Origin: a virus
Direction: 5' to 3' (one strand)
DNA: 20,221 bases
Virus record (IMG/VR): IMGVR_UViG_3300046683_000131
Span: 1-20,221 of that record
This document shows, piece by piece, positions 4,222-18,764 of this stretch (position 1 is the first letter of the stretch; each line of letters opens with the position of its first letter). The notes below the pieces were generated by a model, which was not told the DNA's origin, ran no database searches, and was given only the letters and a program-made list of their open reading frames with translations. Position numbers and translations under genes: made by a program.

Positions 4222-4467
4222 ATGCCATGGAACTCGAAATCGTTCGCGAGCCGTCATAATCACGCCCTCTCCGGTGCCGGAGCCGCCAAGGCCGCCTCGG
4301 TCGCGAACGCGATCCTTCGGGATAGCGGTGACGAGGGCAAGGCCATCCGGATTGCAAACTCCAAGGTCAAGGGCATGCGCAAGAGGGGCCGTATCTCGGA
4401 CAAGGCACACGCCAAGCATAGCTCGGGGCTCGACGGTGAGCGGGATGTGGACGCGGCTACCGCTTGA
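4222..4467 (+). CDS. Conserved small phage protein (MPWxSKSF...HN family)
   Basis: An 81-residue basic helical protein starting MPWNSKSFASRHNHAL, followed by AAKAASVANAILRDSG, DEGKAIRIAN and a basic tail. This arrangement (MP..SKSF...HN..L....A..AA..AN.......EG.AI..AN) is a widespread small phage or plasmid protein of unknown function. GAGGA (4210-4214) seven bases upstream selects the ATG at 4222; an in-frame ATG at 4168, overlapping the previous stop, would add 18 poorly coding residues. The stop is followed within a dozen bases by the first GCNNC array. Confidence 0.75.
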   Translation: MPWNSKSFASRHNHALSGAGAAKAASVANAILRDSGDEGKAIRIANSKVKGMRKRGRISDKAHAKHSSGLDGERDVDAATA

Positions 4468-4478
4468 ATATCTATCAC

Positions 4479-4568
4479 GCACCGCACCGCGTCGCGTCGC
4501 TCAGCATCGCGTCGCTCAGCATCGCAACGCACCGCGTCGCACCGCAACGTTTCGCGTCGCTCCGCAAC
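4479..4568. repeat. Array of 5-base units GCNNC (array 1, 18 units)
   Basis: Ninety bases divide without slippage into 18 consecutive 5-base units: GCACC, GCACC, GCGTC, GCGTC, GCTCA, GCATC, GCGTC, GCTCA, GCATC, GCAAC, GCACC, GCGTC, GCACC, GCAAC, GTTTC, GCGTC, GCTCC, GCAAC. Seventeen begin with GC and sixteen end with C, while the two middle bases vary. The array begins 12 bases after a stop codon and has no supported protein reading. It is not a CRISPR array (units far too short) and not a simple microsatellite, because only the frame positions are conserved. Confidence 0.85.
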
Positions 4569-4587
4569 GTTCTTATTCATTCAAATT

Positions 4588-4605
4588 CCCTAGCCACTAC
4601 TAGGG
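4588..4605 (+). promoter_or_regulatory. Hairpin CCCTAG-N6-CTAGGG over a ribosome-binding site
   Basis: Perfect 6-bp inverted repeat, CCCTAG (4588-4593) and CTAGGG (4600-4605), with a 6-base loop. Its right arm forms most of the strong AGGGAG (4602-4607) that precedes ATGs at 4612 and 4618. No T-run follows, so it is more likely an operator or translational element than a terminator. Confidence 0.5.
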
Positions 4606-4630
4606 AGAGCGATGAAGATGAATCCCGAGA

Positions 4631-4717
4631 CTCCATCGTCTCCGGGTGATGCTTCATCGAGCATGAAGTGTCCCCTGACAAATCGCTCCGGGCGTAGTGG
4701 GCTCGGAGACGATGGAG
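4631..4717 (+). promoter_or_regulatory. Long inverted repeat sequestering a ribosome-binding site
   Basis: CTCCATCGTCTCCG (4631-4644) is perfectly complementary to CGGAGACGATGGAG (4704-4717), and G-U/G-C pairs extend the stem to about 17 bp. A second hairpin, CTTCAT-CGAGC-ATGAAG (4652-4668), sits in the loop. The right arm ends in GGAG (4714-4717), the ribosome site for the gene at 4727, so folding would hide it. This suggests translational control; the trigger is unknown. Confidence 0.6.
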
Positions 4718-4726
4718 AACTTCGCA

Positions 4727-5317
4727 ATGAAAATTGTTACAGCGCATCTCAAAAGCATATCACCCTATTCACAGGCGAAGCACTACGAAGTAGAAAAGTT
4801 ACAAGGTGAGTCGCACGACGACTATTACCGCCGCACTTGGCGCAATCATATGCACGCCGACGGCAACGGAATGACGTTCATCTCTCCAGGAGCATTCAAA
4901 AACTGCCTATCAGAATCCGCTTTATTCATGTCCATCCCTGTTCCTGGAGGAGGAAAGGCGAAGTACACCAAGAATTTCGAGGCCGGCGTAATGGTAATTA
5001 CGCCAGTGCCGCTTGGTGTGCACCGAGACAAAGTCGAATGCGAATGCCTGTTTTTGCCTTCGGACGGAAAACGTGGCGGGTCGAAACGGGTCAATAAATA
5101 TTATCCATTCTTTCCCAAATGGGAGGCGTCCGTCGAGTTTGTGATTGTGGACGATACGGTGTTGCAATCGTCAGTAATCGATAAGTCCAAGACCGTATTC
5201 GAGCAAGTTCTTATCGGGGCTGGTCAGTTTATTGGTATCGGTCGGTTTAGACCTCGCAAAAATGGATGGTATGGAAGATTCTCGGTGGAGAGCATTAAAA
5301 TCGAGCAAGGAGTGTAA
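4727..5317 (+). CDS. Conserved phage protein of unknown function with Gly-rich GxGxxxxxGxGRF C-terminal loop
   Basis: A 196-residue protein. Recognisable segments in order: KIVTAHLKSISPYSQ near the N-terminus, a YYRRTWRNHMH segment, GMTFISPGAFKNCLSESA, a GKRGGSKRV loop, FPKWEASVEFVIVDDTVL, and near the end GAGQFIGIGRFRPRKNG then WYGRF (residues about 164-185). I associate this pattern with an uncharacterised family in proteobacterial phages. The terminal glycine-rich loop resembles the one in RAMP/ferredoxin-fold RNA-binding proteins, a likeness only. ATG 4727 is chosen because GGAG (4714-4717) lies nine bases upstream; in-frame ATG 4712 and GTG 4697 are alternatives. It is followed three bases later by the winged-helix gene, so the two form an operon. 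Confidence 0.68.
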   Translation: MKIVTAHLKSISPYSQAKHYEVEKLQGESHDDYYRRTWRNHMHADGNGMTFISPGAFKNCLSESALFMSIPVPGGGKAKYTKNFEAGVMVITPVPLGVHRDKVECECLFLPSDGKRGGSKRVNKYYPFFPKWEASVEFVIVDDTVLQSSVIDKSKTVFEQVLIGAGQFIGIGRFRPRKNGWYGRFSVESIKIEQGV

Positions 5318-5320
5318 CCT

Positions 5321-5824
5321 GTGCCCGATTTCAAGCAATCGCGCGAAAGTCAGATTATATATGATCTCTTTCGCAACATCCGCAATAGAGACCCGGCGCT
5401 GATCACTTGGGACGAGTTGCTGGAGGCAACGGGGAAACAGCGCCGCACCCAGATTGCCGGCGCAATCATGACGGCAACTCGCCGCGCTAGAAAAGACGAT
5501 CAACTTGTCATCGAATGTGATCGAGGACTCGGATATCGGCTGCGTATAGACAAAGAATTATCCATCAGTGGACAACGAGCAATCGATCGGTCTCGACGTA
5601 TCCAACGGACGGGACTACAAAAGATGGATTGTGCGGACATCAGCAAACTCGATGCTGAGAACAAAGCAATTCACAATGTTCGCAAAAGTGTGCTTGAACT
5701 TGGAATGCTCACGACCCGCCCGAGGACGGTGGCAAGCGTCACGCAGATGGTTATGCGGAAACATAATCAGCTTGACGAGCAAGAGTTGCTAGCAGCCGCC
5801 AAAGAAGCTCTGAGCCGCCGGTAA
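5321..5824 (+). CDS. Winged-helix DNA-binding protein
   Basis: A 167-residue protein. Residues about 6-72 read as a winged helix-turn-helix: helices around IIYDLFRNI and TWDELLEATG, a recognition helix QRRTQIAGAIMTATRRA, and a wing hairpin LVIECDRGLGYRLRI that matches the closing motif (RGxGYRL) of OmpR/PhoB-type DNA-binding domains. The remaining part is helical and charged. There is no receiver domain. GTG 5321 follows AAGGAG (5307-5312) with eight bases spacing, and the gene starts three bases after the preceding stop, so it is co-expressed with the Gly-loop protein. It may regulate this island or act at the flanking arrays (inference). Confidence 0.65.
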   Translation: MPDFKQSRESQIIYDLFRNIRNRDPALITWDELLEATGKQRRTQIAGAIMTATRRARKDDQLVIECDRGLGYRLRIDKELSISGQRAIDRSRRIQRTGLQKMDCADISKLDAENKAIHNVRKSVLELGMLTTRPRTVASVTQMVMRKHNQLDEQELLAAAKEALSRR

Positions 5825-5833
5825 TAACTACTA

Positions 5834-5871
5834 CACTGCGGCGCCGCAACTTGACGCTGCGCGCCGCAGTG
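5834..5871. promoter_or_regulatory. Perfect 11-bp inverted repeat at the head of array 2
   Basis: CACTGCGGCGC (5834-5844) and GCGCCGCAGTG (5861-5871) are exact reverse complements with a 16-base loop, beginning nine bases after the stop of the winged-helix gene. It could be a transcript-end hairpin (but no T-run follows) or a protein-binding site. It overlaps the start of the second GCNNC array. Confidence 0.6.
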
Positions 5872-5950
5872 CCGCACCCCGCAGCGCATCTCGCCGCATC
5901 GCCGCACCCCGCCGCGCATCGCGACGCTTCGCTCTGCAACTCAACGCAAC
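5841..5950. repeat. Array of 5-base units GCNNC (array 2, 22 units)
   Basis: These 110 bases divide without slippage into 22 five-base units, e.g. GCGCC, GCAAC, GCTGC, GCAGC, GCATC, GCCGC, GCGAC, GCTTC. Seventeen begin with GC and twenty end with C. A longer word, GCCGCACCCCGC, occurs twice 30 bases apart (5871-5882 and 5901-5912). It has the same unit, a similar length and the same position (just after a stop codon) as array 1. Confidence 0.82.
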
Positions 5951-5955
5951 GAATT

Positions 5956-6111
5956 ATGAGCGTCTCCGTGATCCGCACTCGACGTAAGAGGCGAAAGTTC
6001 ATGTGGTCCCTCCATCAATTATGGCTTCGCTGGAAATATTGGCGCGCCACAATTCGTAATGGTCACAAGTTTCACGGGTCGGTATGGAGATGGCTACTCA
6101 ATTGGCCGTGA
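5956..6111 (+). pseudogene. Truncated copy of small Trp/Arg-rich gene (first duplicate)
   Basis: ATG 5956 opens MSVSVIRTRRKRRKFMW..., a strongly cationic, Trp-rich sequence (WSLHQLWLRWKYWRATIRNG, WRWLLNW). After 51 residues the frame hits TGA because the 140-bp tandem duplication, whose length is not a multiple of three, shifts it. Removing one repeat copy would join this start directly to the downstream tail ending at 6338, restoring an 80-residue or so ORF. It may still be translated as a short peptide. No clear ribosome site precedes it. Confidence 0.55.
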
Positions 6112-6245
6112 TCCGCACTCGACGTAAGAGGCGAAAGTTCATGTGGTCCCTCCATCAATTATGGCTTCGCTGGAAATATTGGCGCGCCACAATTCGTAAT
6201 GGTCACAAGTTTCACGGGTCGGTATGGAGATGGCTACTCAATTGG
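5966..6245. repeat. Exact 140-bp tandem duplication (2 copies)
   Basis: Bases 5966-6105 and 6106-6245 are identical over all 140 positions, both beginning CCGTGATCCGCACTCGACG and ending GGCTACTCAATTGG. No terminal inverted repeats or transposase are present, so it is a plain tandem duplication, either recent or an assembly artefact. The unit carries most of a small gene, and each copy contains the palindrome TGGCGCGCCA (6040-6049, 6180-6189). Confidence 0.97.
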
Positions 6246-6338
6246 GAGATACCAATCAATTATAAGTTGCTGAAAAGCGACCCCGATTATGAGCGTCGAT
6301 TAATGGCATTTAAGCATGAGCAACCGCCGCCCTCTTGA
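6084..6338 (+). CDS. Small cationic Trp/Arg-rich protein (second duplicate, complete 3' end)
   Basis: An 84-residue ORF from ATG 6084 (or ATG 6090) that reads into repeat copy 2 (VIRTRRKRRKFMWSLHQLW, WRWLLNWEIP) and continues into unique sequence ending KSDPDYERRLMAFKHEQPPPS. The first eight or so residues come from the end of copy 1 read in another frame, so the original start was probably ATG 5956. The composition (many Arg, Lys and Trp) suggests a membrane- or nucleic-acid-binding peptide, but I do not recognise a family. It overlaps the start of the large terminase by 23 bases, which supports it being part of the same operon. Confidence 0.5.
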   Translation: MEMATQLAVIRTRRKRRKFMWSLHQLWLRWKYWRATIRNGHKFHGSVWRWLLNWEIPINYKLLKSDPDYERRLMAFKHEQPPPS

Positions 6339-8067
6339 GCTTGATCTACATCTGCATCCCAAACAGTGGATAGCATTCGAGACCGGGGCAACAGAGGTTC
6401 TATTCGGCGGCGCGGCCGGTGGCGGAAAATCGATGTGCATGCGTATTGCTGGCGTCGTTTGGGGCGCCGCAATTCCAGGACTGCAAATCTATCTCTTCCG
6501 CCGCAGCCGTCTTGATCTGATCAAGAATCACATGGAGGGCCCCAACGGCTTTCGCGCGCTATTGGCTGGATGGGCTAACAGTGGCTTCTGTTCGGTCATC
6601 GAGGACGAGATTCGCTTCTGGAACGGAAGCAAGATTTATCTTTGCCACTGCAAAGACGAAAAGGATATCTACCGCTACCAGGGCGCCGAGATTCACGTTC
6701 TATTGATGGATGAACTTACCCATTTTTCGTCCACAATGTACCGATTTCTCCGCAATCGCGTCCGCATGGTCGGAATTGATCTGCCGTCTCAATATGCCGG
6801 TCGGTTTCCTCGCATCTTTGCGAGTGCAAACCCAGGAAACATCGGACATCTGTGGGTCAAGGAAACATTCATCGCGGGCGTGCAGCCTTTAGTTGCCCGT
6901 TTGATGCCCGCCTCTGAAGGCGGAATGATCCGCCAATTCATCCCCGCTCGGTTGGAAGACAACCCGAGCATGATGCAGGACGATCCCGGCTATGAACAGC
7001 GCCTTGAAGGTTTGGGCTCGGAAGCTCTCGTCAAGGCGATGCGGTACGGCGATTGGGATGTTGTCGATGGCGCCTTCTTCGACTGTTGGCGCAATGACAA
7101 GCACGTTATCCCGCCGTTCTCTATTCCGCCGGATTGGCTGCGCTTTCGCAGCGGTGACTGGGGTTCGGCTTCTCCCGCAAGTATTGGATGGTGGGCAGTC
7201 GTCCAAGATGATTTCGAAATCCCCGCTGTGGGTGATCGACTTGGAAGGCGGCGATTTCATCAAGACCACGCACCCAATAGATGCTTGGACCCAATTGGAG
7301 AAATTGGCGAGGACGGCGCCGCGGTGCAGGCCGGTATCGTGCTCCGTCGAGGCTCCCTCGAAGACGAACCGGATATTTCAGGACGACGACTTGACTTACA
7401 ACGGGCTGATCATCCGGGACAGCGCAACGGGGAATCCGATCGACTTGGGATGGAACACGCCGGACGAGGAGGCTTGATCCTCCGTCGCGGCTCTCTCATC
7501 CGCTATCGTGAGGATTACATCTCCTGCGGCCCCAACAAGGGCCTAAAGCTCACCGCCGAACAAGTCGCAGACCGCATCATCGAGCGGGAGGCGAAAGACC
7601 CGAAGCTGTCTTACGGTGTCCTTGACCCTTCCGCATTCAAACAAGACGGCGGCCCCTCGATCGCCGAGCGCATCAACGGCAAACTGGTCAAGGCAGAGCT
7701 CGCCGCCTTCCGTCCTGCGGACAATGCACGCGTCAGCAGGATCGCCGGCCATGGCGGCGGCCCCATGAGCGGCTGGGATGTGGTTCGATCAAGGATGATC
7801 GGAACGGGCACCGCGGTCGATCCCGATCCCATGATTTTCTGGTTTTCGACCTGCGTCGATTCCATCCGCACGATCCCGGTCCTGCAGCACGACATTCATC
7901 AGCCCGAGGATGTGGACAAGAACGCAGAAGACCATTCGGCTGACGATGCTCGGTACGCTTGTCTGAGCCGGCCCTACACCAAGACGAAGCTCGTGCCGGA
8001 AGCGCCGAAGGATGCCTATCGGCCTCCGAGCGAGACGATTCCGATGGACAGTTGGAAAACGCTCTAA
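6316..8067 (+). CDS. terL: Terminase large subunit (packaging ATPase/nuclease) with aberrant nuclease-domain segment
   Basis: The motor that cuts and translocates phage DNA into the procapsid. The ATPase domain shows Walker A GGAAGGGKS (residues about 31-39), Walker B VLLMDE (about 128-133) and the coupling motif FASANPGN (about 168-175). The RNase H-like nuclease domain has the acidic RSGDWGS (about 280), VLDPSAF (about 435) and DHSADDARYACLSRP (about 540). Total length is 583 residues, longer than I would expect because about 85 codons between GWWAVVQDDFEIP and LRRGSLIRYRED (about 7220-7477) have non-coding character in this frame, while another frame looks coding. The flanking parts are intact, so the protein may be a full-length ORF with a scrambled loop. 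ATG 6316 has only a weak ribosome site. Confidence 0.88.
   Translation: MSNRRPLELDLHLHPKQWIAFETGATEVLFGGAAGGGKSMCMRIAGVVWGAAIPGLQIYLFRRSRLDLIKNHMEGPNGFRALLAGWANSGFCSVIEDEIRFWNGSKIYLCHCKDEKDIYRYQGAEIHVLLMDELTHFSSTMYRFLRNRVRMVGIDLPSQYAGRFPRIFASANPGNIGHLWVKETFIAGVQPLVARLMPASEGGMIRQFIPARLEDNPSMMQDDPGYEQRLEGLGSEALVKAMRYGDWDVVDGAFFDCWRNDKHVIPPFSIPPDWLRFRSGDWGSASPASIGWWAVVQDDFEIPAVGDRLGRRRFHQDHAPNRCLDPIGEIGEDGAAVQAGIVLRRGSLEDEPDISGRRLDLQRADHPGQRNGESDRLGMEHAGRGGLILRRGSLIRYREDYISCGPNKGLKLTAEQVADRIIEREAKDPKLSYGVLDPSAFKQDGGPSIAERINGKLVKAELAAFRPADNARVSRIAGHGGGPMSGWDVVRSRMIGTGTAVDPDPMIFWFSTCVDSIRTIPVLQHDIHQPEDVDKNAEDHSADDARYACLSRPYTKTKLVPEAPKDAYRPPSETIPMDSWKTL
7208..7477 (+). other. Alternate-frame coding segment inside terL (nested ORF or compensating frameshifts)
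   Basis: From ATG 7208 (overlapping the terL frame) to TGA 7477, the +2 frame reads SPLWVIDLEGGDFIKTTHP...TYNGLIIRDSATGNP...GWNTPDEEA. By hand count, about 79% of its third codon positions are G or C, against about 48% in the terL frame over the same bases. The terL frame here is full of CGA, GGA and CAA codons. One extra C in the CCCC run near 7218-7221 and one missing base near 7473-7477 would join this frame smoothly to the terL sequence on both sides. Alternatives are a nested gene or an inserted gene fragment. Confidence 0.6.
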
Positions 8068-17414: not shown

Positions 17415-18764
17415 ATGACAGCCCGTAATGCCGTAGGCGTCATTACAGAAGTCGGCGGGTTAACCGGCGCACCAACGACGCCGCAGCAATTTGCGTCGGC
17501 GACGTTGGGGGGACAGGGCGGCCTTACTGCTGCCGCGACGATTCTTGCTGCTCCCACCGCGCCGTACATGTCTCCCCTCTGGGTGCCGCGGCCCCCGGAG
17601 GACTCTGTTTGGCAGTGGCAACCGCTGCCCCCGCCGCCGCCGTCCGCGGCGCAGACCGCATCGGCGATCCTTGCGGGCGCCGGTGGGCTCACTGCCAGCG
17701 TTCTCGGTCCATTCCAATTTGCGTCGGCGACGATCGCCGGTGCAGGCGGCATTGTCGAAGCAGACAGCGGCGCAGTCCAGTTTGCGTCGGCGACATTAGC
17801 GGGGTCCGGTAACCTTACCGCCAGCGCGCTAGGGCCGTTCCAGTTTGCTTCGGTCACGCTCGCCGGTGTCGGCGCCCTTACCGAAGCCGACAGCGGCGCC
17901 ATCCAGTTTGCCTCGGCGGTTCTTGCTGGTTCAGGCTCGCTCACCGAGGCTGATTCAGGCGCCGTTCAATTTGCTTCTGCGGCGCTTGCCGGCGTCGGAA
18001 GTCTTGCGGAAGCGGACAGCGGCGCGGTTCAGTTTACGGCCGCGACATTTGCCGGCATCGGCAATCTGGCCGCCAACACTCAACAGATCACATCCGCTGT
18101 TTTAGCGGGTGTCGGCGGGCTCTCGGCCAATAGCCCAGGCATACAGTTTGCCTCGGCCGCACTTGCCGGTGTCGGCGCCCTTATCGAAGCAGATAGCGGG
18201 GGCATACAGTTTGCCTCAGCCACGCTGGCGGGCACTGGGGCGCTAGCCGAAGCCGATAGCGGTGCAATTCAGTTTGCTTCGGCTGCGCTGGCCGGTACTG
18301 GCGCGCTCACGGGGAGCGCGTCCGGGCCGCTCCAGTTCGTATCGGTGCAATTCGGCGGCGTCGGCGGTCTTTTTGCCGATGCCATCGGTCCGCTCCAGTT
18401 TGCGTCGGCGACGCTCTCCGGAACTGGGGGCCTTGTCGAGGCCGATAGTGGTGTAGTCCAGTTTGCGTCGGCGACGCTGGCCGGTTCGGGCGGCCTTGCC
18501 GCGAGTACACAGCAACTCGCATCAATCGTTCTTGCTGGCGTCGGCGGCCTTGCGGCGGCCGGTACCGTCCTCACTCCGGGTAATGTCGTCCAGGCGGAAT
18601 TCGACGGTATTGGCGGCCTTGTTGCTGCTGCCAATGCGCGATACGTCGCATCGGCGACATTCGCCGGCGAGGGAGGAATGACCGCAGTGGCCACTGGTGG
18701 CGGCGGTCCCACGACTGGTGCAGGCGAAATTATCACTCGCTGGCGGCGGCGCGGCAGAAGGTAG
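17415..18764 (+). CDS. Repeat-rich tail-type protein (21-residue QFASATLAG repeats)
   Basis: A 449-residue protein. After a short N-terminus and a Pro-rich hinge (WQWQPLPPPPPSAAQ), it is built of about 18 modules with the core LAGxGxL. Most form a 21-residue unit QFASATLAGSGxLTEADSGAV that repeats exactly every 63 bases from 17715. The end is basic (ITRWRRRGRR). Such repeats give elongated beta-rolls or solenoids and fit a tail fibre or virion surface protein. Third bases within the repeats differ, so this is not a recent amplification. Neighbouring tail-type genes support the role; receptor binding is a guess. Confidence 0.72.
   Translation: MTARNAVGVITEVGGLTGAPTTPQQFASATLGGQGGLTAAATILAAPTAPYMSPLWVPRPPEDSVWQWQPLPPPPPSAAQTASAILAGAGGLTASVLGPFQFASATIAGAGGIVEADSGAVQFASATLAGSGNLTASALGPFQFASVTLAGVGALTEADSGAIQFASAVLAGSGSLTEADSGAVQFASAALAGVGSLAEADSGAVQFTAATFAGIGNLAANTQQITSAVLAGVGGLSANSPGIQFASAALAGVGALIEADSGGIQFASATLAGTGALAEADSGAIQFASAALAGTGALTGSASGPLQFVSVQFGGVGGLFADAIGPLQFASATLSGTGGLVEADSGVVQFASATLAGSGGLAASTQQLASIVLAGVGGLAAAGTVLTPGNVVQAEFDGIGGLVAAANARYVASATFAGEGGMTAVATGGGGPTTGAGEIITRWRRRGRR
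17715..18512 (+). repeat. 63-bp coding repeats
   Basis: CAGTTTGCGTCGGCG-type starts occur at 17715, 17778, 17841, 17904, 17967 and 18030, each exactly 63 bases apart, then again in further groups up to about 18512. Each unit encodes a 21-residue module of the protein at 17415-18764. Confidence 0.85.

Follow-up and report, generated by a model that had tools for sequence, protein, structure and literature searches.

A probable VIPR locus with CGC-scaffold guide arrays in a virus record

The interval 4479-5950 of the analysed DNA (hereafter the window, a stretch of 20,221 nucleotides comprising positions 1 to 20,221 of IMG/VR virus record IMGVR_UViG_3300046683_000131) is very probably a VIPR locus, made up of a vipr gene, a vap gene and two vrRNA genes built on a CGC scaffold (Table 1). 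VIPR systems, described in 2026 and proposed as a CRISPR forerunner, combine Vipr, a RAMP protein of phages, with the accessory gene vap and with guide RNAs termed vrRNAs, and are found mainly in phages and proviruses (PMC13142463). The window comes from a virus record with a terminase and a P22-like portal, which fits such carriage. The vrRNAs are tandem 5-nt units in which a fixed triplet alternates with a hypervariable NN pair, with a GGY/NN or related consensus according to the published main description, and double-stranded DNA is recognised through these NN pairs, one base being skipped per pair, so that rival phages are repressed (PMC13142463). The system in general is known; the window holds a CGC-scaffold locus, set apart from the GGY arrays of that main description. 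This assignment is favoured because of Vipr homology with a RAMP fold, a gene order like that of Escherichia phage SUSP1, the linkage of arrays to Vipr, the agreement of strands and the variability of the NN pairs.

Table 1. Components of the putative VIPR locus
Feature	Coordinates	Strand	Basis
vrRNA array 1	4479..4568	+	18 GCNNC (= CGC/NN) units
vipr: RAMP protein, 196 aa, glycine loop GIGRFRPRKNGWYGRF	4727..5317	+	profile, hhalign, predicted fold
vap: accessory protein, 167 aa, N-terminal half winged-helix-like	5321..5824	+	homologues in array loci; weak vap1 relation
vrRNA array 2	5841..5950	+	22 GCNNC units

Profile and model evidence identify the gene at 4727 as a Vipr homologue. Its product shows weak similarity to a hypothetical protein from a Felixounavirus. 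A profile of 45 homologues from array loci, compared with 177,635 PDB sequences, gave 36pp_D ('SUSP1 Vipr protein', E 3.9e-12) as its sole match, and alignment of the Vipr family with SUSP1 agp039 by hhalign gave E 9.6e-13. Six residues (G114, G166, G170, G172, G183 and R184) are invariant in the alignment of the 45 homologues. The AlphaFold model of the protein (pLDDT 94.8) matches the RAMPs of type III and type VII CRISPR systems (best Foldseek value 1.9e-7) and aligns with Csm3 at Z 12.0 over 162 residues at 3.5 A. Pfam offered no convincing family for this protein or for the product of the 5321 gene. An earlier sequence-only reading of the same DNA, which named a winged-helix protein, missed the RAMP identity of the 4727 gene; the predicted model of the 5321 product is winged-helix-like (pLDDT 91.8).

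The 5321 gene adjoins vipr in the same direction, its homologues occur in array loci, and it is counted here as the vap accessory gene. Its resemblance to vap1 of SUSP1 is weak: hhalign of the two families gave E 1.6e-4 with a probability of 51%, and phrog_5926, the family of SUSP1 vap1, gave 0.094 for the 5321 protein and 1.8e-4 for another member of its family. Foldseek with the 5321 model returned nothing below E 0.001.

Array 2, read in register from 5841, consists of the units GCGCC GCAAC TTGAC GCTGC GCGCC GCAGT GCCGC ACCCC GCAGC GCATC TCGCC GCATC GCCGC ACCCC GCCGC GCATC GCGAC GCTTC GCTCT GCAAC TCAAC GCAAC, with the NN string GC AA GA TG GC AG CG CC AG AT GC AT CG CC CG AT GA TT TC AA AA AA. 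The structure previously reported for it was reproduced on recounting: its 22 units are in register, 17 beginning with GC and 20 finishing with C, the 5321 gene has its stop codon (ending at 5824) 16 nt before the array, and an internal word, GCCGCACCCCGC, recurs 30 nt apart (period 30, 84% matches). Array 1 starts 11 nt past the stop of the 4168 gene, has the NN string AC AC GT GT TC AT GT TC AT AA AC GT AC AA TT GT TC AA, and possesses the 3' end GCAAC-G that is seen in other arrays. The best 12-unit scores are 33/36 for array 2 and 34/36 for array 1, as against maxima of 29 and 27, respectively, in dinucleotide shuffles of the arrays themselves and of 25 in shuffles of the whole window. Both arrays and both intervening genes are encoded on the + strand.

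IMG/VR viral contigs were scanned for eight exact GCNNC units, which yielded at least 120 stretches; these are counts of stretches rather than of independent lineages, and some contigs are near-copies. Among the matches listed, a Vipr homologue accompanies 82 of 120 stretches, compared with 0 of 109 control viral loci (0.94 Mb), and many of the remaining stretches are either repeats of low diversity or close to the end of a contig or locus. Many contigs possess several arrays, nearly always on one strand among the matches listed, and the ratio of same to opposite strand relative to Vipr is 311:13 in that set. Loci contain from 1 to 14 arrays, distributed upstream, downstream or between genes. 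Over the 7,503 units of the matches listed, the three fixed positions are conserved at 85, 96 and 92%, all 16 NN pairs occur, and AA is the commonest (0.138). Adenine mutagenesis of a GCAAC repeat, as in a DGR, was considered on account of this preference and dropped once Vipr had been identified. Array tails tend to the ending GCAAC GCAAC G, which fixes the polarity of the arrays, and among 236 CGC-class tails only GCAAC-G is constant. The linkage was also examined in the reciprocal direction: 80 loci were retrieved by Vipr sequence alone and scanned for any triplet-NN array, and one was found in 75 of them (score at least 27/33; controls reached at most 26).

These data bear on two other explanations of the arrays. 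The winged-helix-like model of the 5321 protein, and the position of both arrays beside its operon, would suit iteron-like DNA sites that this protein coats to control transcription of the island, and binding sites of this kind had been suggested in the sequence-only reading. We regard this as very unlikely, however, as two of the five unit positions are hypervariable, which is odd for a protein site, and the arrays track the RAMP protein. Furthermore, the strand bias relative to Vipr points to RNA, and the similarly built arrays of SUSP1 are transcribed into RNA that is bound by Vipr (PMC13142463). The second explanation, ordinary microsatellites grown by slippage, has almost no likelihood as a full account. 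Slippage does contribute, since neighbouring units share their NN pair more often than expected (0.135 vs 0.074) and array 2 includes a 30-nt internal duplication; a few of the scan matches (L024, L054 and L063) are pure repeats. Decay of a microsatellite would strike all five positions, but three are fixed while NN spans all 16 pairs, and Vipr is present in 72 of the 94 loci with diverse NN pairs as against 10 of the 26 low-diversity loci.

Comparison with relatives supports the treatment of the two arrays and two genes as one unit, the functional pairing that had been proposed from the sequence. In L005, whose portal is 92% identical, the 4168-4467 gene is separated from the terminase (6316) by 192 bp, as against about 1.85 kb in the window; the 192 bp hold a different small frame, and the absent stretch corresponds to about 4464 to 6315. 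The interval is therefore missing as a whole in this one comparison, which is what the sequence-only reading had advised looking for in related phages. Vipr was not found in the whole records of four relatives. In the closest relatives of the window Vipr, the proteins are kept and the NN strings are changed with respect to the window. The absence of the complete interval from L005 might also be expected if both genes belonged to a mobile cassette bounded by the arrays, but this earlier suggestion is extremely unlikely: the variable interval continues 365 nt past array 2 up to the terminase start, the arrays are direct rather than inverted and differ in sequence, the number of arrays at other loci ranges from 1 to 14 and their positions are many, and neither gene is a recombinase.

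The region between array 2 and the terminase contains a perfect 140-bp tandem duplication (5966-6245), with two copies in the window and in L007 and one in L003. In L003 the frame from the ATG at 5957 is intact up to the terminase and encodes a small protein of the 81-aa class, and the two copies shorten this frame in the window and L007. The duplication represents strain variation or assembly. In the terminase large subunit itself (6316-8067), the frame appears to shift at about 7356-7480, where similarity to L005 breaks; another long frame (6992-7477) overlaps it. Further along the window, 17415-18764 encodes a 449-aa protein built from repeats of some 21 residues (QFASATLAGVGALTEADSG-like; 63-nt period), which is probably a structural or fibre-like protein.

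The stretch between array 1 and vipr (4587-4717) is strongly structured (fold z-score -4.7): it contains a perfect inverted repeat of 14 nt (4631-4644 / 4704-4717), and several shorter pairings interlock in the manner of pseudoknots. Searches of Rfam, and for similar DNA in relatives and phages, gave no match to it, and only array 1, of the two arrays of the window, precedes such a stretch. The stretch could serve as the tail of a guide RNA or as an attenuator, or have nothing to do with the arrays. No Rfam family, and thus no hammerhead or other known RNA, was matched in 4300-6400 of the window or in any of 13 array loci.

Five types of fixed triplet were identified at the 80 Vipr loci: GGC (the most frequent), CGC, GAC, GTC and GTT. 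GAC arrays are found in L369, L373, L375, L377, L389 and L406, GTC arrays in L418 and L380, and GTT in L383. From these sequences, the fixed triplet follows the phylogeny of Vipr: the tree requires 22 triplet changes as against 46 when labels are shuffled, and none of 200 shuffles was as low, with near-copies inflating the clustering. To fit the well-supported branches, the CGC label must have changed at least twice, and the window Vipr groups with those of L348, L349 and L350, all of them CGC; a quick method was used for the tree, its outgroup SUSP1 sits on a very long branch, and its root is unsure. We tentatively suggest, as a possibility short of even likelihood, that VIPR scaffold triplets (GGY, CGC, GAC, GTC, GTT) switch repeatedly together with Vipr, that the CGC class had two or more origins and has no structured tail, and that the triplet acts as a lock-and-key which stops coexisting systems from loading each other's guides. 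The co-variation of triplet and protein makes it testable which Vipr residues read the triplet and whether a triplet swap gives independent guide sets. VIPR guide arrays can moreover be found in raw DNA by the five-base rule, and among the viral contigs of IMG/VR the CGC version is common.

By analogy with SUSP1, the locus would most likely use its guides to repress transcription in a competing element. Transcription of each array, running the same way as the genes, would give an RNA with a repeat tract of about 90-110 nt, and Vipr subunits would line up along this guide RNA, as expected from the SUSP1 complex (PMC13142463), one Vipr per unit being our assumption. The RAMP protein would hold the fixed CGC triplet and the NN pair would stay free for pairing. 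The NN string may then read double-stranded DNA as NNxNNx..., with one base skipped per pair, and the complex, helped by vap, may repress the gene to which it binds, both steps being modelled on SUSP1 (PMC13142463). The repressed gene would most likely belong to a competitor, whether phage, prophage or satellite.

Possible targets were sought with the one-base-skip rule. A scan with 8-pair cores of both arrays in viral contigs, and of one core in bacterial genomes, followed by extension of the matches, gave no target, and nine related virus records contained no match to the window arrays within 3 mismatches. The first 11 pairs of array 1 match L145/L182 perfectly; the match extends no further, and its skipped base does not fall on the wobble position of the open frame, so it was judged to be chance. 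When all arrays were compared with the collected loci, no clear excess was seen for a one-base skip in CGC arrays, a survey in which the window's own matches are biased because those loci were retrieved with the window pattern. A suggestive match involves the CGC-type array of L047 (5742-5796), 11 NN pairs of which agree at 21/22 with a gene of L014 (about 1666-1698), the skipped base falling at the wobble position; about 0.04 such matches are expected by chance, as an estimate. L014 is itself a VIPR carrier, and the frame of the matched gene is VRR-NUC-type nuclease-like by eye.

Among known systems, the predicted fold of the 4727 protein is shared with Csm3/Cas7, the RAMP subunits of CRISPR types III and VII, from which it differs in its 6-18% sequence identity and in being a single RRM-type core protein. 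In CRISPR-Cas loci, unique spacers some 30 nt long lie between direct repeats, whereas the 5-nt units of the window arrays follow one another without spacers; no repeat-spacer array adjoins the 4727 gene, and the code is carried by 5-nt repeats rather than contiguous spacers. The closer comparison is with the VIPR system of SUSP1 (NC_028808; PMC13142463; PDB 36pp), in which our procedure, as a positive control, recovered GGT/NN arrays flanking the agp039/agp038 gene pair. The two Vipr proteins are only about 23-38% identical. The triplet is CGC in the window as against GGT/GGC in SUSP1, and we take CGC as a 'related consensus' in the sense of the published main description; the arrays have 18 and 22 units, compared with 9-16 in published vrRNAs (PMC13142463). 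The SUSP1 vrRNA possesses an invariable structured 3' tail, whereas no conserved structured tail was seen in the CGC class, whose arrays end in GCAAC-G. On account of their triplet and length, the window arrays are not classed as SUSP1-clade (type II) vrRNAs, which are strictly GGY with 9-16 units. Shared by both are 5-nt units composed of a fixed triplet and a hypervariable NN pair, a RAMP gene followed by a small gene of DNA-binding type, and the order array-vipr-vap-array, with the arrays on the same strand as the genes.
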